Assembly (NCBI RefSeq): GCF_001887355.1 | Contig: NZ_MPIN01000006.1 | Coordinates: 124,001 to 188,000 of the forward strand | DNA from: Cystobacter ferrugineus | GTDB taxonomy: Bacteria > Myxococcota > Myxococcia > Myxococcales > Myxococcaceae | DNA length: 64,000 bases | Direction of reading: 5' to 3' | In this document: positions 54,947-63,049 of the stretch, piece after piece | Layout: each line of letters begins with the position of its first letter | How positions within the stretch are numbered: position 1 is the first letter of the stretch | Notes under the pieces: generated by a model | What the model was told of the DNA's origin: nothing | What the model saw: only the letters and a program-made list of their open reading frames with translations | Databases searched by the model: none | Made by a program: the position numbers and the translations under genes

Positions 54947-56644
54947 TCACCACCCCGGACCCGAGGAGCCCGCCGGTCCGCTCGACCACACCCACCGCCC
55001 GGCGGCTCCGGACGGTCCTCCCGAACCGGGGCCCTGCTCCGAGGAGCCCGCCGGTCCGCTCGACCACACCCACTGCCCGGCGGCCCTGGGCGAACCCGCC
55101 AGGCCCGGCCCCTGTTCCACCGGCCCGTAGACCCACATCCATTGCACAACCCCTTCCCCTCGCCGCGGCGCACCCGGCACCTGCTCCGAGGAGCCCGCCG
55201 GCCCGTGCGAGCCAATCCATTGAACGACTCCTTCGCGCGCATGCGACACTCCCGCCGCCTGCTCCGAGGAGCCCGCGGGCCCCTGGGACGCGAACCCGTG
55301 GGCGAGGGGCCCGGTGGGCGCTCGTGCGTCGCCACCCGATTGGGGGACGCCCGTCGGCCAGGCGCTCTGCTCCGAGGAACCCGACGGTCCGGCCGAATCC
55401 AGCCAGATCTCCGAAGAGCCACCAGGCCCGTGTGACCACACCCAACGCTCCGGGGGCGCGGTCTCGGGGGGCCCCGCCGGCACAGGCACCTCGCCGGGAG
55501 CCCTCTCGGCGGGCCTCGGAACAGCCACGCGTCCTTCCGACGAGGAGCCCTCGGCACGCGGGACGTGTAGATACCCCGGCGCGGGGACGTCCTGCTCGCC
55601 AGGAGGCGCCGCGCGCTCCGGCACACGGGGCTCGAGACGCTCGGCGCTGCCCGGCAGGCTCACGCGGCGCCAGGTGATGTAGTCGCGCTCCTGGTCGGGC
55701 TCGATCCGGAGGGCCACGGAGCCGGGACGAGGCGTGGCGCGCCAGGCGGCGGGAGACGGCATCCGCAGGAAGCGCACCGAGGTGTCCGCGGAAGGCCCCG
55801 CGGGAGGCAGGACGACACGGTTGGAGGAGTGTCCGATGCGGCGCGAGCGGCCATCCCGGCCGACGAAATGCAGCTCCACCCGGTAGGCCCGGCCCGCTGG
55901 GAGTCCGCCGAGGTAGAAGCTCCGCGACTCGAGCGCGACGTCGGTGACACCGAGCAGGGTGCCCTGCTCATCGAGCAGCCTCATCACGACCCGCGGGTAC
56001 TCCAGCCCCTGCGCGGCGCGCTCCCGGGTGGAGGCCTTGAAGTCCCAGAACACGAAGAGCGTGTGGGGATCCCGGGGCAGCAACACGACGGTGTCATCCT
56101 CGTAGTCCATCGGCAGCGTGCCGAGCGACCCGTTGGAGAGCAGCCCTCCCGGCGCATCGGGAGGCGGCGCGTTCGACGCTCCGGTGAGATGGTGGCGCCG
56201 GGCCTCGTCCTCCCCCGCGATGCGCGCCACGAAGAAGCCCTCCACGAGCGGCTCGGAGGAGAACCTCGCGGGCTCGGGAGGAGGCGCGGCGGGCGCGGGA
56301 GGAACAGGGGGCGCCGGTGGGGCCGAGGCCACCGGTTCCAACTCCGCCTTGGGCGCGGGTGGGAAGTCATCATCCCCGGGCAGGGGCCGCTTCGGCGCGG
56401 CGGGGGCCTCGGGCCGGGAAGTGGGCGGTTCCGCGGGGGACTGGGACGCGGGGACGCCCGAGGGAGCACCGGTGGAGTCGTGATCCCGCTCTCGCAGTCC
56501 CATGAGGGTGACGAGCTCGTCCACGCGCGTCGCCAGTGCGCCGAGCAGGCCCTTGCGAGCCTTGAGCCTGTCCACCCCGCGCCCCCACTGCGTGTGCGCG
56601 AATTCCCGGAGGTGTTCCACCATGATGCGCTTGCGGTCGGCCAT
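54947..56644 (-). CDS. DUF4912 protein with GPAGSSEQ repeat tail
   Basis: 565 residues. Residues 1-60 look like a charged helix (EHLREFAHTQWGRG ... ALATRVDELVTLMGL). Residues 60-130 are Pro/Ala-rich. A DUF4912-like domain at about 178-295 has LLPRDPHTLFVFWDFKASTR and YLGGLPAGRAYRVELHFVGR. From about 340 it is low-complexity, and residues 401-565 carry seven W-x-x-S-x-GPAGSSE-type repeats (WVWSHGPGGSSE, WIGSHGPAGSSE, WVWSSGPAGSSE and others). DUF4912 proteins are often next to GH57 enzymes, as here (10 bp to the branching enzyme). Role unknown; possibly a glucan-binding partner. Confidence 0.75.
   Translation of the reverse strand: MADRKRIMVEHLREFAHTQWGRGVDRLKARKGLLGALATRVDELVTLMGLRERDHDSTGAPSGVPASQSPAEPPTSRPEAPAAPKRPLPGDDDFPPAPKAELEPVASAPPAPPVPPAPAAPPPEPARFSSEPLVEGFFVARIAGEDEARRHHLTGASNAPPPDAPGGLLSNGSLGTLPMDYEDDTVVLLPRDPHTLFVFWDFKASTRERAAQGLEYPRVVMRLLDEQGTLLGVTDVALESRSFYLGGLPAGRAYRVELHFVGRDGRSRRIGHSSNRVVLPPAGPSADTSVRFLRMPSPAAWRATPRPGSVALRIEPDQERDYITWRRVSLPGSAERLEPRVPERAAPPGEQDVPAPGYLHVPRAEGSSSEGRVAVPRPAERAPGEVPVPAGPPETAPPERWVWSHGPGGSSEIWLDSAGPSGSSEQSAWPTGVPQSGGDARAPTGPLAHGFASQGPAGSSEQAAGVSHAREGVVQWIGSHGPAGSSEQVPGAPRRGEGVVQWMWVYGPVEQGPGLAGSPRAAGQWVWSSGPAGSSEQGPGSGGPSGAAGRWVWSSGPAGSSGPGW
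54950..55444 (-). repeat. Degenerate GPAGSSEQ-coding repeats
   Basis: Seven copies encode W-x-x-S-x-G-P-x-G-S-S-E with 15-40 residue spacers, some copies decayed (WMWVYGPVEQ). The last two are almost identical at DNA level and 26 codons apart. The copies nearest the 3' end are the most alike, suggesting recent duplication there. The units are in frame throughout. Confidence 0.75.
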
Positions 56645-56776: not shown

Positions 56777-59020
56777 TTGAGTGATCTGCCCAGACTCCTG
56801 CTGTGCAGCTTCGACGTCATCCCCGGCCCGTCGGGTTCCTCGCGCCGGCTGACCGAGTATTTGAAGGCACTGCCCGATCGGTTCTCCGTGGTGGTGCTCT
56901 CGGTCAAGACGCCGGATCACACCCACATCGAGAAGTACGAGAACGCGCGGCTGCTCCGGGTGCCCGTGGGCGCGGGAGACCTGGCCTCGCGCATCCAGGC
57001 CTTCGAGCGCGCCGTGCGGCGTCAGTTGGAGAGCGAGGAGTACGCCCTCGTCCACTTCACCGATCCCTTCGGCGGCTACGCCCTGTGCGAGCTCAAGGGC
57101 GACTACGGCTACCGGCTCGTCTACGAGGCGCAGAGCTTTCCCTCGCAGGAGCTGCGCTACACGCATCCGCAGTTGGAGGGAGACCGCAAGTTCCTCTCGA
57201 AGATCCGGCGCCAGGAGCTGTTCTGCCTGATGAACGTGGATCGGGTCATCACCGGCTCGGCCACCACGGGCCACTTCATCCAGTCCCTGGGCGTGCCGAG
57301 CGAGTCGGTGCACGTGGTGCGCGCCCCCGTGGACATGGGGCCCTATGCGCCCGAGGCGCTCGGTGTGCCCGACGGCGCCCCCATGCGGCTCATGTACCTG
57401 GGCAGTCAGGTCTCCTGGCAGGGCCTCGCCGGGCTGCTGCGGGGACTCGCGCTCGCGGTGCGCGAGGTGGACGTGCGGCTGTCGATCGTCGGTCCGCGAC
57501 ACCCCGACTGGCAGCCCCACCTGGAAGATCTCGTCGCCGAGCTCGACCTCAAGCAGCACGTCGAGTTCCAGCCCTCCGTCAGCCATGACAACCTGGCCAA
57601 GGTGCTCGCCCTCGCGGACGTGGGGGTGGTGCCGCTCGACGACGTGGATCGCAACCGCGTCCAGGGCGGCGCGCTCGCCAAGGTGTCCGAGTACCTCGCC
57701 GCGGGCCGGCCCGTGCTCGCCGCGGACCTGCCCCTCACGCGCGAGCTCGTCCCCGCCGCCGCGGGGGTCTTCTACCCACCCGGAGATGCCCAGGCCCTCG
57801 CCGAGCGCCTCATCGCCCTCGCCCGCGACGTGCCCCGGCGCCTGTCGCTCGGCGAGCACGCCCGCGCCTTCGCCAGCCAGTCGCTCGACGCGGGGCTCAT
57901 CCGCGGCCAGCTCCTGGACATCTACGACACCCTGCTCGGCAAGGACGTCACGGCGCGCGCGCGCACCGGCGAGCCGAGCGAACCCCAGCTCACGGCCGTC
58001 ACCGGCACGCCCACCAACCGCGTCCTCGGCATGATGGGCACGGTGAGCGCCGAGGCCCCTCCCGAGCCCGAGCCCCCCGCCGCCAAGGCCGCCGAGCCTG
58101 AAAGCCCGGCCACCCAGGACACGGATCCCGGACAGGGTCCCCCGGCGCTGGATGATCCGCCCGTCGTCGTGGGCCAGGCCCTTCGGGTCGAAGATGGCTT
58201 TGATACCCGGCTCGTCAAGACCGAGCCCGACACCCGCCGTCCGGAGGGTCCTCCCGTGGTCATGGGCCTGCCCCTACGAGATCCCCCCGCCGCCGACCAG
58301 GAGCAGTCCCTGACCGAGCAGCACGCGCGGCCTCCCGTTCCACCCCCGGCTCCGCCTCCGATCCCGGCTCCGACCTCCGTCCCGGCGCCCCCGCCCATTC
58401 CCAGCCGGCCCTCCATGGGCCCGCGCCCCGTGCCCCCGGAGCTGCGCCGCACCACCCCGCCCGAGCTGCGCCGCGCGGTGACCCCGGAGCCCGAGCCGCT
58501 CCGGCCTCCCGCCCTGCCCCCCCGGCCGTCCGTGGAGACCCCGCGCCCCTCGCGCGCCTCGCTCGCCATTCCGCCGCTGCCCCCCCGGGCCACCCGGCCG
58601 CCCAATGGCCCACGGCCCAGCGAGCCCCCCGTGCTCACGCCGGTGCCCGCGCCCCCGGCTCCCGCGCCTCCCGTCCTCCATCCCGTCGCCGAGGAGGAAC
58701 CCGAGGAGATCTCCTCCTCTCATGCCGAGGTGCTCGCGGACGAGGAGGCCTCACCCACGCCCCGCCATGCCCACCCGATCGAGGAGCCCGAGGAGATCAG
58801 CAGCGAGGAAATCCAGGAGACCGAGGCGCCCCCTCGCGAGCCGCCCGAGTCCCGGCTCAACCCGTGGTTCGCCCAGCTCGCCCACGGCTACTGCCCGCCC
58901 GAGGGCACCCACTTCGCCCGGCACACCCCTCCCACCACCTTCCCCGGCCGGGACGAGCTGCCCGCCCCCACGGCCGTTCCCCCCAAGCTCCAGGGCGGCG
59001 CGCGCGGCAAACCCTCATAA
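56777..59020 (+). CDS. GT4-family glycosyltransferase with long proline-rich tail
   Basis: 747 residues. Residues 1-395 are a GT-B glycosyltransferase: LLCSFDVIPGPSGSSRRLTE, VHFTDPFGGYAL, MYLGSQVSWQGLAGLLRGLA, LADVGVVPLDD and KVSEYLAAGRPVLA. The typical E-x7-E acid is reduced to SEYLAAG. Residues 395-747 are Pro/Glu-rich and disordered, with acidic EEPEEISS twice, and end in a short block SRLNPWFAQLAHGYCPPEGT. It starts at TTG 56777 with no clear ribosome site. Divergent from the DUF4912-GH57 pair (132 bp) and 129 bp before aglZ. Donor and acceptor are unknown. Confidence 0.8.
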   Translation: MSDLPRLLLCSFDVIPGPSGSSRRLTEYLKALPDRFSVVVLSVKTPDHTHIEKYENARLLRVPVGAGDLASRIQAFERAVRRQLESEEYALVHFTDPFGGYALCELKGDYGYRLVYEAQSFPSQELRYTHPQLEGDRKFLSKIRRQELFCLMNVDRVITGSATTGHFIQSLGVPSESVHVVRAPVDMGPYAPEALGVPDGAPMRLMYLGSQVSWQGLAGLLRGLALAVREVDVRLSIVGPRHPDWQPHLEDLVAELDLKQHVEFQPSVSHDNLAKVLALADVGVVPLDDVDRNRVQGGALAKVSEYLAAGRPVLAADLPLTRELVPAAAGVFYPPGDAQALAERLIALARDVPRRLSLGEHARAFASQSLDAGLIRGQLLDIYDTLLGKDVTARARTGEPSEPQLTAVTGTPTNRVLGMMGTVSAEAPPEPEPPAAKAAEPESPATQDTDPGQGPPALDDPPVVVGQALRVEDGFDTRLVKTEPDTRRPEGPPVVMGLPLRDPPAADQEQSLTEQHARPPVPPPAPPPIPAPTSVPAPPPIPSRPSMGPRPVPPELRRTTPPELRRAVTPEPEPLRPPALPPRPSVETPRPSRASLAIPPLPPRATRPPNGPRPSEPPVLTPVPAPPAPAPPVLHPVAEEEPEEISSSHAEVLADEEASPTPRHAHPIEEPEEISSEEIQETEAPPREPPESRLNPWFAQLAHGYCPPEGTHFARHTPPTTFPGRDELPAPTAVPPKLQGGARGKPS

Positions 59021-59149: not shown

Positions 59150-62100
59150 ATGGAGCGTCGCGTCCTCATTGTTGAAAGCCAGAATGACTTCGCCCTGAGC
59201 ATGGCCACCGTGCTCAAGAGCGCGGGTTATCAAACGGCCATGGCGGCCACCGCCGCCGATGCTCAGCGGGAGATGGAGAAGCGGCGTCCGGATCTCATCG
59301 TGGTCCGCGCCGAGCTGCCGGACCAGTCGGGCTTTTCCCTCTGTGGGCAGATCAAGAAGGGCAAGTGGGGGCAGAACATGCGGGTGCTCCTGCTGTCCTC
59401 GGACACGGGGGCGGACGGGCTGCAGCAGCACGGCCAGACGCCGGGCGCCGCGGACGGCTACCTCTCCATCCCCTTCGAGATGGGAGAGCTCGCGTCGATG
59501 AGCGTGGACATCATGCCGCCGGGCGAGTCCGAGCAGGATGCCGCGGCGCGTGAGGGCGCGCCCGCCACGCCGCCGCCGCTCAAGGGAGGCCCCACCCCCG
59601 CGGGTGCTCCGCCCCGGCTGCCCAAGCGCGAGCGCCGCAGCGCCATCACCGAGGAGGATCGCACCTTCCTCGAGCGCGCCTTCCAGTCCATCGCGGACCG
59701 CAAGGCCGAGCTGCTCGCCGAGTCGCGTCAGCTCCGGCGCCCGCCGCCGCGGCGCGACCTGATGGGCACGCCCGAGGGCAAGGTGCAGCTCCTGCGCGAT
59801 GAGTTGAAGGTGCGCGAGGCGCAGATCGCCCGGCTGTCCGAGGTGTGGAACGTGCGCGAGCGCGAGCTGCTCTCGGTCGAGGACCGCCTCCACGAGAAGG
59901 ACGTGGAGCTGCAGGCCCTGAAGATGCAGGTGGATGACCTGCTGCGCCGCTTCAACGAGGCCCAGCAGGGCATGCTCCAGAAGGAGCGCGAGCACGGCGC
60001 GACCGTGGACGACCTGCTCCTGCAGAAGTTCTCCGCGGAGAAGGATCTCATCGAGGTCGTCGCCTCCAAGGAGAAGGACATCAACGTCCTGCGCCGCTCG
60101 GTGACCAACCTCGAGGACGAGCTGTCGCGTCGCGGGGGCGAGCTGAGCAATCTGCGCGACGAGTACGAGAAGCTCGAGAAGCACCTGAACATCGTCACCC
60201 TCGAGTTCGAGGTGAAGGAGCAGGGGCTCACCACGACGGTGCAGGCGCACGAGGCCGAGCTCGGCCGCCGCCAGCAGCGCATCGAGGAAGTGGAAGGCGA
60301 GCTGGCGCGCACCATCAGCGAGCGCGATCAGCGCTACTCCGAGCTCACCGGGGAGATCCAGGCGCTGCAGGAGCGGCTGGCCCAGACCGAGCAGGAGCGC
60401 GACACGACCGTGCGCAACCTGGAGGCGCGCGCCCTCGCGGCCGAGGATCACGGCGCCCAGGCGGACGCGGAAATCCAGCGCATCTCCGCCGAGCGCGCCG
60501 CGCTCGAGGCCCAGCTCAACGAGCAGATCGCCGGCCTCACCGCGGACCTGGCGCGCACCAACGCCGAGCGCGATCAGCTCCAGCTCGACAAGGACGCCCA
60601 GGAGCAGCTCCTCAACCAGCGCCTGGAGGAGCGCGACGCGAAGGTCGCCACGCTCGAGACCGAGCTGCAGGAGACGATCGCCCGCAACGAGAACCACGAG
60701 GCGGAGCTCAACGCCAACATCCAGCAGCAGATGGAGCGCATCGGCGAGCTGGAAGGCGAGGTCGAGGCCGCCAAGGCGCACCTGGCCGATCGCGAGCACG
60801 AGCTGACGGCGGAGCTGGAGGCGCTCACCGCCGCCAAGGCCGCCATGGAGGCGGACTACGCCGGCCAGGTGCAGGCGCTCCAGGAGACCGTCGCCGATCG
60901 CGACGCGAACATCGCCACCCTGCGCGGCGAGCTGGACGCCACCTCTCAGACGCTCACCGAGACCCAGTCCACCCTCACCGACACCCAGGACAAGCTGGCC
61001 CAGGCCGAGGAGACGCTCCTCACCACGCGCGGCGAGCTGGACGCCACCTCTCAGACGCTCACCGAGACCCAGTCCACCCTCACCGACACCCAGGACAAGC
61101 TGGCCCAGGCCGAGGAGACGCTCCTCACCACGCGCGGCGAGCTGGACGCCACCACCCAGGCCCTCACCAGCACCCAGTCCACCCTCACCGACACCCAGGA
61201 CAAGCTGGCCCAGGCCGAGGAGACGCTCCTCACCACGCGCGGCGAGCTGGACGCCACCACCCAGGCGCTGACGGAGACCCAGAACACCCTCGCCACCACC
61301 CAGGACACCCTGGCCCAGACCGAGGAGTCGCTCTCCGCCACGCGCGGCGAGCTGGACGCCACCACCCAGGCCTTCACCGAGACCCAGGGCCTGCTGGAGC
61401 AGACCCGCGACGAGCTCGCCCAGACCGTGCAGGCGCGCACCGAGCGCGAGGCCGAGCTGATCGCCGCGCACAAGGAGATCGCCCGCGTCAACGGAATCCT
61501 CCAGGAGACCGAGGCCCTCAAGACGGCCATGGAGGAGGAGCTGTCCGAGCAGCTCGGCCTCGTGCGCACCGAGCTGGCCGAGACCCAGGGCACCCTCTCC
61601 GCCACGCGCGAGGCGCTCGCGGGTGAACAGGCCGCCCACGTGCAGACCCAGCAGCAGGCGTCCAGCACCCAGGCCGACCTGGAGGCCCAGCTCGCCCAGG
61701 CGCGCGATCAGGGCCAGGATCTCGAGGAGCAGCTCTTCCTCGTCAAGCAGGAGCTGGGCAGCCGCGTCTCCGAGGTCACCCAGCTCGGCTCGCAGCTCGC
61801 GCAGATCGAGGAGGAGCGCAACAACCTCCAGGATCGTCTCGACACGCTCACCGCCGAGTCCCAGCGCCGCATCGACATCCTGGAGCAGGACTCCGAGCGC
61901 AAGAACCAGGAGCTGTCCGACACCCTCCAGAAGCTCAGCGGTCTGACGCAGGAGCGCGAGCGTCTGCGCGGCGAGGTGGCCGCGCGCAACGAGCAGCTCA
62001 AGCAGCAGGAGGAGCGCCGTCAGCACGAGGCGGAGCACGCGCGCCGCGCCCAGGAGGAGCTGTCCCGTCAGCTCGCCGGCCTCAACTCGGAACTGGAGGC

Positions 62101-63049
62101 CCTGCGCAAGCAGCTCGCCGCCCGTGACGAGCAGCTACGCGCCGCGGCCGCCGCCCAGTCCAAGCTCCAGTCCGAGCGCGAGGGCCTCGCGGCCAACCTC
62201 TCCGCGGCTCACGCCCAGGCCCAGGCCATCCAGCAGACCCAGGCCCAGGAGCGCGCCGAGGCCAGGCGCGCCCAGGAGGAGCTGAACGCGAAGCTGTCTC
62301 GCGCCGAGGCCCGCGCGGTCCAGCTCGGCCAGGAAGCCCAGGCCCGCGCCGCCGAGGCCGAGGAGCGGATCAAGGAGGCCCAGGCCCAGCTCGCCGCTCG
62401 CGCCAAGAAGGTCCAGGAGATGGAGCTCGCGGTGGAGAACGCCACGGGTGCCAAGGCGCGCGCGGAGAAGGAACTCAACGCCAGGCTGGCCGCCGCCGAG
62501 ACCAAGGCCACCGACGCCGCGACCAAGCTCGCCACCGCCCTCAAGGAGCGCAAGGAGCTGGAGGCCAGGCAGCAGAAGGAGCTCGAGGATCTCGCCACCC
62601 GTCAGAAGGCGGAGCTGGAGCGCCGCGAGGCCCTCAAGGCCCAGGAGATCGCGCGCCTGCAGCAGTCCGTGCAGGAGAAGAGCAAGGCCCTCAAGGTCGC
62701 CGAGCTGGAGCTGGCCCGCTTCAAGACGAAGGGCGCCGCCGCCCCCAACACGGTGAAGCCGGCCGCCACCAGGCCCCCGGTGGAGGACGATGATTCCCTG
62801 CTGGCCACCCAGCAGGCCGTTCCCACCATCGCCCCCGCGGCGCCCCGGGCCGCTCCCGCTGCTCGTCCCGGCGCCAAGCCCGCCTCGGGTGCCACCGCGA
62901 AACGTCCCGCTCCGGCTCCAGCTCCGGCTGCCTCGCTCGCCGAGGACGAGGCCGCTCCCGATCGCACCATGATCATGCCGGTGCCCGGCGCCGCTCCCGC
63001 CGAGGACGAGGCCGACTGGACGTCGCTCGTGGACGAGCTGGACAAGTAA
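59150..63049 (+). CDS. aglZ: AglZ gliding-motility coiled-coil protein with pseudo-receiver
   Basis: 1299 residues; the Myxococcus AglZ is about 1395 (from memory). Residues 1-120 are a receiver fold (RRVLIVESQNDFALSMATVL), but the acid pair is ES, the phosphoacceptor position is Arg53 in LIVVRAELPDQ, and the conserved Lys is lost (GYLSIPFEM), so it cannot be phosphorylated normally. Residues 120-205 are a linker. From about 205 to 1190 it is a heptad coiled coil, including exact 35-residue repeats. A proline-rich tail ends in DWTSLVDELDK. AglZ organises adventurous-motility sites and interacts with MglA and the Frz pathway in M. xanthus. FrzS is related, but much shorter. An A-rich region precedes ATG 59150. 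Confidence 0.9.
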   Translation: MERRVLIVESQNDFALSMATVLKSAGYQTAMAATAADAQREMEKRRPDLIVVRAELPDQSGFSLCGQIKKGKWGQNMRVLLLSSDTGADGLQQHGQTPGAADGYLSIPFEMGELASMSVDIMPPGESEQDAAAREGAPATPPPLKGGPTPAGAPPRLPKRERRSAITEEDRTFLERAFQSIADRKAELLAESRQLRRPPPRRDLMGTPEGKVQLLRDELKVREAQIARLSEVWNVRERELLSVEDRLHEKDVELQALKMQVDDLLRRFNEAQQGMLQKEREHGATVDDLLLQKFSAEKDLIEVVASKEKDINVLRRSVTNLEDELSRRGGELSNLRDEYEKLEKHLNIVTLEFEVKEQGLTTTVQAHEAELGRRQQRIEEVEGELARTISERDQRYSELTGEIQALQERLAQTEQERDTTVRNLEARALAAEDHGAQADAEIQRISAERAALEAQLNEQIAGLTADLARTNAERDQLQLDKDAQEQLLNQRLEERDAKVATLETELQETIARNENHEAELNANIQQQMERIGELEGEVEAAKAHLADREHELTAELEALTAAKAAMEADYAGQVQALQETVADRDANIATLRGELDATSQTLTETQSTLTDTQDKLAQAEETLLTTRGELDATSQTLTETQSTLTDTQDKLAQAEETLLTTRGELDATTQALTSTQSTLTDTQDKLAQAEETLLTTRGELDATTQALTETQNTLATTQDTLAQTEESLSATRGELDATTQAFTETQGLLEQTRDELAQTVQARTEREAELIAAHKEIARVNGILQETEALKTAMEEELSEQLGLVRTELAETQGTLSATREALAGEQAAHVQTQQQASSTQADLEAQLAQARDQGQDLEEQLFLVKQELGSRVSEVTQLGSQLAQIEEERNNLQDRLDTLTAESQRRIDILEQDSERKNQELSDTLQKLSGLTQERERLRGEVAARNEQLKQQEERRQHEAEHARRAQEELSRQLAGLNSELEALRKQLAARDEQLRAAAAAQSKLQSEREGLAANLSAAHAQAQAIQQTQAQERAEARRAQEELNAKLSRAEARAVQLGQEAQARAAEAEERIKEAQAQLAARAKKVQEMELAVENATGAKARAEKELNARLAAAETKATDAATKLATALKERKELEARQQKELEDLATRQKAELERREALKAQEIARLQQSVQEKSKALKVAELELARFKTKGAAAPNTVKPAATRPPVEDDDSLLATQQAVPTIAPAAPRAAPAARPGAKPASGATAKRPAPAPAPAASLAEDEAAPDRTMIMPVPGAAPAEDEADWTSLVDELDK
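60923..61411 (+). repeat. 105-bp tandem repeats in aglZ
   Basis: Four full units start at 60923, 61028, 61133 and 61238, each 105 bp, and a partial fifth starts at 61343. Each encodes 35 residues (for example GELDATSQTLTETQ then STLTDTQDKLAQAE), exactly five heptads with Leu at position 3 of each. The first two units look identical at DNA level; the later ones differ at a few sites. Confidence 0.9.

Follow-up and report, generated by a model that had tools for sequence, protein, structure and literature searches.

A conserved four-residue core in the repeat tail of a DUF4912 protein paired with a GH57 enzyme in Myxococcota: a candidate docking array

DUF4912 and GH57 genes form a near-obligate pair in Myxococcota, and the DUF4912 protein of the pair in Cystobacter ferrugineus ends in a repeat tail that is, with good confidence, a selected array of short motifs of some kind. 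Even distant relatives retain the four-letter core G-[AGS]-S-[DE] of the tail, which for this reason is probably a row of docking sites and not junk. Our reading as a whole, which we hold tentatively and at somewhat less than even confidence, is that this is a multivalent docking tail on a dedicated partner of the GH57 enzyme. The window analysed is a stretch of 64,000 nt from C. ferrugineus contig NZ_MPIN01000006.1, and coordinates count from its first letter (Table 1).

Architecture of the DUF4912 protein

The only Pfam domain placed on the window protein was DUF4912 (PF16258), at 62.7 bits against a gathering cut-off of 29.4. A search for Rho_N (PF07498) gave no match in this protein up to an E of 1; the same model scored above its cut-off of 24.9 in relatives, however, with 31.8 bits in L129, 36.6 in L133 and 45.8 in L148, and the N-terminus is accordingly Rho_N-like as judged via those relatives. 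The protein of L148 (genome G082) carries a tandem pair of Rho_N stretches ahead of DUF4912.

Zero sequence matches to solved structures were obtained for the DUF4912 protein at E up to 1, and its fold was examined by prediction. The full-length model was built from an alignment of three rows and reached a mean pLDDT of 44; it shows four helices at the N-terminus and a beta sandwich at residues 184-283, and leaves the tail without structure. The sandwich resembles fibronectin type III domains with a Z of 11.1 and an rmsd of 1.9 over 89 residues, and the domain folded alone (pLDDT 72.7) gave closely similar values (Z 10.7, rmsd 2.2, 89 residues). None of the matches listed for the domain had a non-FN3-like fold, and its sequence stays below the Pfam fn3 threshold. 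DUF4912 is thus predicted to adopt the fibronectin type III fold, as an FN3-like beta sandwich. The tail has a pLDDT of about 30 in the full-length model, which, coming from an alignment of only three rows, is weak evidence for disorder; its composition (G, S, A and P, and also W) and its fast change in length agree with disorder. The modelled architecture is therefore Rho_N-like, then FN3-like DUF4912, then a tail without predicted structure, consistent with the initial annotation, which had described the tail as lacking globular character and as belonging to no named family; no Pfam or NCBIfam model covers it.

Repeat units of the tail

The final 165 residues of the 565-aa protein contain seven units of 12-13 residues, starting at residues 401, 414, 450, 476, 502, 525 and 551 and hence spaced by 13, 36, 26, 26, 23 and 26. 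The translation and the unit coordinates bear out the seven W-x-x-S-x-GPAGSSE repeats that had been proposed at 54950-55444, with the exact pattern present in the units at 476 and 525, four further units off by one or two places and the unit at 502 degenerate. GSSE is intact in five of the seven units and Trp is present in six. G[AS]S[DE] cores occur five times in the tail, whereas shuffling predicts 0.13 and none of 2000 shuffled tails had more than two; in the window the core stands as GSSEQ, with an aromatic residue 8-9 positions upstream. At the DNA level, TRF reports a 78-bp period with a score of 218.

The last two units were rightly described as nearly identical, since units 6 and 7 open with 33 identical bases. 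The suggested decay of the repeats with distance holds only roughly: degeneration is greatest in unit 5, and upstream of the array there are two weaker look-alikes (residues 322-337 and 358-372), the first of which, the YITWRRVxLPGS segment, is kept in most Myxococcaceae homologues. Compared with two close relatives (G029 and G045), the unit counts are 7, 7 and 9, the extra units being insertions of roughly 26 residues. Units are therefore gained or lost in steps of roughly 26 residues, in line with the view of an actively duplicating tail. That the repeats also occur in other proteins of the genome was considered and rejected: in five of five genomes, the DUF4912 gene alone was matched by a repeat HMM at E 0.001 or better (among the best-ranked 150 out of roughly 500-750 first-look candidates in each genome), and weaker matches in these five genomes looked like chance.

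Table 1. Features of the DUF4912-GH57 locus in the window
Feature	Coordinates	Strand	Remarks
GH57 AmyC-type glucan branching enzyme, 530 aa	53344..54936	-	Glyco_hydro_57 and BE_C; 2b5d, E 1.3e-179
DUF4912 protein, repeat carrier, 565 aa	54947..56644	-	stop codon included
N-terminal helical Rho_N/SAP-like region, residues 1-50	56495..56644	-	four helices in model; Rho_N in relatives
DUF4912 domain, residues 181-288, predicted FN3-like beta sandwich	55781..56104	-	PF16258, E 5.2e-17
YITWRRVxLPGS segment after DUF4912, possible remote unit, residues 322-337	55634..55681	-	unit-like by eye only
YLHVPRAEGSSSEGR, remote unit, residues 358-372	55529..55573	-	resembles Tyr-type units of other genera
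Unit 1, WVWSHGPGGSSE	55409..55444	-	
Unit 2, WLDSAGPSGSSE	55370..55405	-	
Unit 3, GFASQGPAGSSE	55262..55297	-	without Trp
Unit 4, WIGSHGPAGSSE	55184..55219	-	
Unit 5, WMWVYGPVEQ	55112..55141	-	degenerate
Unit 6, WVWSSGPAGSSEQ	55034..55072	-	
Unit 7, WVWSSGPAGSSGPGW	54950..54994	-	first 33 bases those of unit 6
Divergent GT4-type glycosyltransferase, Pro-rich tail	56777..59020	+	neighbour in most Myxococcaceae loci

The tail in relatives

The DUF4912 protein is matched in 34 of 58 same-family genomes (the match in G040 was too weak and is not counted). The tail starts used in the core counts, the tree label and the aromatic counts were set by regular expressions. In 33 tails, those of 32 relatives and of the window, G[AS]S[DE] cores number two or more in 27, one in a single tail and zero in five; in the wider set of 91 loci, 61 reach two cores or more at a shuffle p of 0.01 or less. 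The initial annotation had named an absent or unrelated tail in relatives as grounds against its claim, and on that count the claim survives: the tail is present in most of them, in altered form.

What alters is the spacing and the surroundings of the core. Units lie mostly 13 residues apart in g8 and in the window's own genus, 14 in g26, 15 in parts of g23 and 19 in g15, and the core is set in WVWSxGPAGSSEQ in g1 and g8, in YLTVPRAPGASDQ in g26 and in YLESxRPxGSSEQ in g15. Trp characterises g1 and g8, its place being taken by Tyr in g26, g23 and g15, and we consequently dropped the idea that the tail is in essence a sevenfold Trp motif. Kept across genera are the Gly, a small residue, the Ser and an acid, that is, G-[AGS]-S-[DE], and it is this core, not Trp as the initial annotation had implied, that defines the units. 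A count made without presupposing any motif gave the same picture, the commonest exact tail 4-mer being GSSE in g1, g8 and g15, GASD in g26, g17 and g23, and GASE in f20 and the second copies of f2 (eight of eight groups).

A second kind of DUF4912 protein occurs in the Anaeromyxobacter-like loci L135, L152 and L153 and also in L131; its GASE/GGSE arrays are dense, their period being about 8-10, and in the Anaeromyxobacter-like second copies the Trp position is often only Leu. The Anaeromyxobacter-like genomes (G144, G148 and G165, for L135, L152 and L153) each have two DUF4912 and two GH57 matches, the array being on the second DUF4912-GH57 pair and the first pair lacking one. Other arrangements were also seen. 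In f13 (L129, L133, L145 and L149) the DUF4912 proteins end in a further domain-like stretch (YWLWVDADLIVYGATVPGSRV...) and not in repeats, and in L065 (G006) long Pro/Ala/Ser-rich repeats lie N-terminal of DUF4912 and not after it. Upstream of GH57 in L179 (G012) is a diverged DUF4912-like protein of 431 aa that the family searches missed and whose tail is of another type, abundant in LPSS-like words.

Selection on the core

Pooled over 11 within-genus pairs, with the L153/L152 pair excluded, dN/dS was 0.065 for core columns, picked where the motif occurs in one or both members of the pair and so favouring conservation, against 0.148 for the equally biased control of other frequent repeat words and 0.44 for the rest of the tail, all of these counts being non-independent because the repeats exchange sequence among themselves. 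In the same pairs the DUF4912 domain stood at 0.23 and the N-terminal part, linker included, at 0.45. The synonymous rate of the core is normal, at 0.276 per site, and its Ser codons are TCN in 446 cases and AGY in 38. These substitution rates show the core to be under purifying selection. Amino-acid identity within genera is 0.91 for the core versus 0.89 for other frequent repeat words, and 0.90-0.94 for W, Y and F; judged on sequence comparison, then, the core stands out between genera and by dN/dS, not by identity within genera.

On a tree of 62 GH57 proteins, the character 'two or more cores' requires 5 gains or losses, against 20.5 when shuffled, and at least 3 of those 5 changes are forced by well-supported branches. 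A single gain covers the crown Myxococcaceae, and L131 and the second copies of f2 are placed elsewhere, with the same core arrays recurring in separate parts of the tree. Single copies of the motif, such as LGASEQR in L127 and LGASERS in L122, suggest an old single motif that was amplified more than once, the alternative being repeated loss.

The GH57 neighbour

The GH57 gene begins 10 bases past the stop codon of the DUF4912 gene, as initially annotated. Its product scores 117.3 bits against a cut-off of 21.2 for Glyco_hydro_57 and 136.7 against 25 for BE_C, and its best solved relative, aligned over the whole length, is the Thermotoga maritima alpha-amylase 2b5d. The catalytic Glu-Cys and the Asp proton donor are kept, with WLAEC and APYDAELFGHWW aligning with 2b5d; the roles of the catalytic Glu and Asp in GH57 branching enzymes are set out in the portion of PMC6616209 available to us. 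The protein falls short of the NCBIfam Thermococcales or Thermus branching-enzyme equivalogs (324.7 bits against 1000 and 314 against 920), and the alignment with 2b5d shows that it does not have the long catalytic-loop insertion. According to the accessible parts of PMC6616209 and PMC10346327, AmyC shows weak branching and much hydrolysis, with 10.5 mU/mg on amylose versus 480 for a Thermococcus enzyme, and the accessible part of the latter paper reports that 92% of GH57 branching enzymes have no catalytic loop, with very low branching when assayed alone.

In 89 of 89 loci with both genes, the gene immediately after DUF4912, in the same orientation, is GH57, a count that omits L098 and L104 (no GH57 seen in the locus contig) and L150 (where the profile found no DUF4912). 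Among 146 Myxococcota genomes, DUF4912 occurs in 97 and GH57 in 103, and all 97 are among the 103, so that the neighbour proposed as a branching-enzyme partner is indeed a constant genomic partner (89/89 loci; 97/97 genomes). The six genomes with GH57 and no DUF4912 match are the distant G068, G081, G093, G097 and G104, together with G053, whose contig (locus L178) breaks within the DUF4912 tail; draft genomes may thus undercount both the DUF4912 gene and its units. The array is not needed for the partnership, because 30 of the 91 loci have fewer than two cores and keep the GH57 pair intact.

GH57 as the only branching enzyme was ruled out, since a GH13 GlgB scores above cut-off in 58 of 58 family genomes; GH57 is therefore a second enzyme, and probably a specialised one. 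Within the GH57 proteins themselves the core motif is absent from 88 of 89 and present as one copy in the remaining one. A GH57 query gave two distant actinobacterial plasmid matches and no match in viral contigs (a made-up query gave none in phages), and T. maritima, as a control genome, has a DUF4912 match. One scan of genome contigs brought up two myxobacteria.

On the other side of the DUF4912 gene, the glycosyltransferase was considered as a further carrier of the core and rejected: two scattered cores in 8 of 58, non-tandem and with one inside the GT domain, were judged to be chance. That gene has short DNA repeats of its own (18 and 24 bp) in its Pro-rich tail, at 58345-58490. Beyond it, at 59150-63049, lies a gene whose 1299-aa product, AglZ-like by resemblance, joins a receiver domain to a long repetitive tail, and which contains 4.4 near-identical 105-bp tandem repeats at 60922-61387; AglZ is described, in the part of PMC4546325 available, as a motility protein with a receiver domain and a long coiled coil. 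The start of an AglZ-like gene is also near the DUF4912-GH57 pair in L179.

Discussion

In the mechanism we propose, the AmyC-type GH57 enzyme from the next gene would have in the DUF4912 protein a dedicated partner that is not itself catalytic. The C-terminal tail of this partner would be disordered and multivalent, repeating one short linear motif with G-[AGS]-S-[DE] as its core. Every copy of the core would be a weak docking site; through avidity the array would make the local concentration higher and keep several GH57 molecules, or a single GH57 on a glucan particle, at the DUF4912 protein. One enzyme per unit is implausible in several genera, whose units, at a spacing of 13-14 residues, leave too little room. 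The docked partner would most likely be GH57 or a shared partner on the glucan particle, and the function, we infer, would be clustering on glucan. Whether the core docks a protein rather than glucan appears evenly balanced; that GH57 itself is the docked protein is possible but rather doubtful.

Another way to view the tail is as binding alpha-glucan directly, with its spaced Trp or Tyr residues stacking on the chains and bringing the enzyme to glycogen in the manner of ESV1/LESV. We consider this a serious rival, though less likely than not: the partner enzyme does act on glucan, the tail aromatics are highly conserved and, in the crown genera, an aromatic lies at most 9 residues before or 5 after the core in 19/20 cases (g1), 36/36 (g8), 83/84 (g26), 27/27 (g15) and 81/85 (g23). 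Among the f2 second copies, however, no more than 18 of the 30 cores have a near aromatic, and in f12 neither of the two does, yet G-[AGS]-S-[DE] is kept there, and direct binding gives no reason for the invariant S-[DE]. Moreover, ESV1/LESV form an extended beta sheet according to the accessible part of PMC10219597, and none is predicted in the tail by the shallow model. From the sequence comparison, glucan binding thus looks strong as an explanation in crown Myxococcaceae and weak in the f2 second copies and f12; tethering or docking appears to fit the conserved core better, and glucan binding the conserved aromatics. Both may operate together, with the core for docking and the aromatics for glucan.

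The tail could instead self-associate, its aromatics acting as stickers and its Gly, Ser and Pro as spacers, and the resulting condensates or oligomers would concentrate the GH57 that the folded domains hold. A composition dominated by G, S, A, P and W, the lack of predicted structure, a unit number that varies freely and a partnership that exists without arrays too are all compatible with this, but a mere sticker-spacer tail would need neither an exact tetrapeptide across groups with different spacers nor so low a core dN/dS, and we regard it as distinctly unlikely. Less probable by far is a switching of the partner through multisite modification (phosphorylation, for instance) of the arrayed S-[DE] cores. 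Myxobacteria do have many Ser/Thr kinases and the invariant Ser adjoins an acid, but the invariant Gly and small residue would go unexplained. Neutral slippage in a GC-rich, low-complexity linker, to which the recent 26-residue insertions and the identical openings of units 6 and 7 might point, has a negligible chance of being the explanation and was rejected on the low core dN/dS at a normal synonymous rate and on the recurrence of the same core in separate lineages.

A bolder version of the docking mechanism would make the AmyC-type GH57 half of a two-part enzyme and the DUF4912 protein its missing subunit, with the repeat tail docking several enzymes and presenting glucan in place of the lost loop, as a multivalent scaffold for storage glucan whose G-[AGS]-S-[DE] arrays were gained more than once. 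We offer this as speculation, and think it improbable as it stands. If it is true that a loop-less GH57 works with a DUF4912 partner, then earlier solo assays measured half a system. The core motif gives a concrete handle on DUF4912, a domain family without known function, and the tail is a candidate for a bacterial example in which disordered repeats organise an enzyme of metabolism. Searches of literature lying outside most subscription journals, including those for AmyC, TM1437/TM1438 and MXAN_2988-2992, found nothing on the DUF4912-GH57 pair, and the only mention of DUF4912 there, in the portion available, was in work on cotton callus.

The window protein shares with other DUF4912 (PF16258) proteins the domain itself and, across Myxococcota, the position adjoining GH57; Pfam assigns the domain no function, and the repeat tail lies outside the model. 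The neighbouring enzyme resembles AmyC of T. maritima (2b5d) in keeping the Glu-Cys and Asp motifs, and both are without the long catalytic-loop insertion of the archaeal enzymes, but AmyC has been studied alone, with no partner protein named in the parts of its literature available to us.

The Trp-rich region of the plant proteins ESV1/LESV offers a likeness in its regular aromatics and acids linked to alpha-glucan (PMC10219597, in the part available). Unlike the beta-sheet plane formed by ESV1/LESV, the DUF4912 tail is without predicted structure, and, as the f2 second copies and f12 show, its aromatics are not family-wide. EPYC1 and CsLinker of the pyrenoid, and CsoS2, are disordered multivalent linkers. 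The window protein differs from them in sequence and in having two folded N-terminal domains. It resembles them in a tail that is predicted to be largely disordered and carries repeated short elements. The FLIPPer screen used an element spacing of 20-120 residues (PMC11570498, as far as available); the spacing of 23-36 for most units in the window falls within that range, with one gap of 13 and, in the long runs of other genera, spacings of 13-15.
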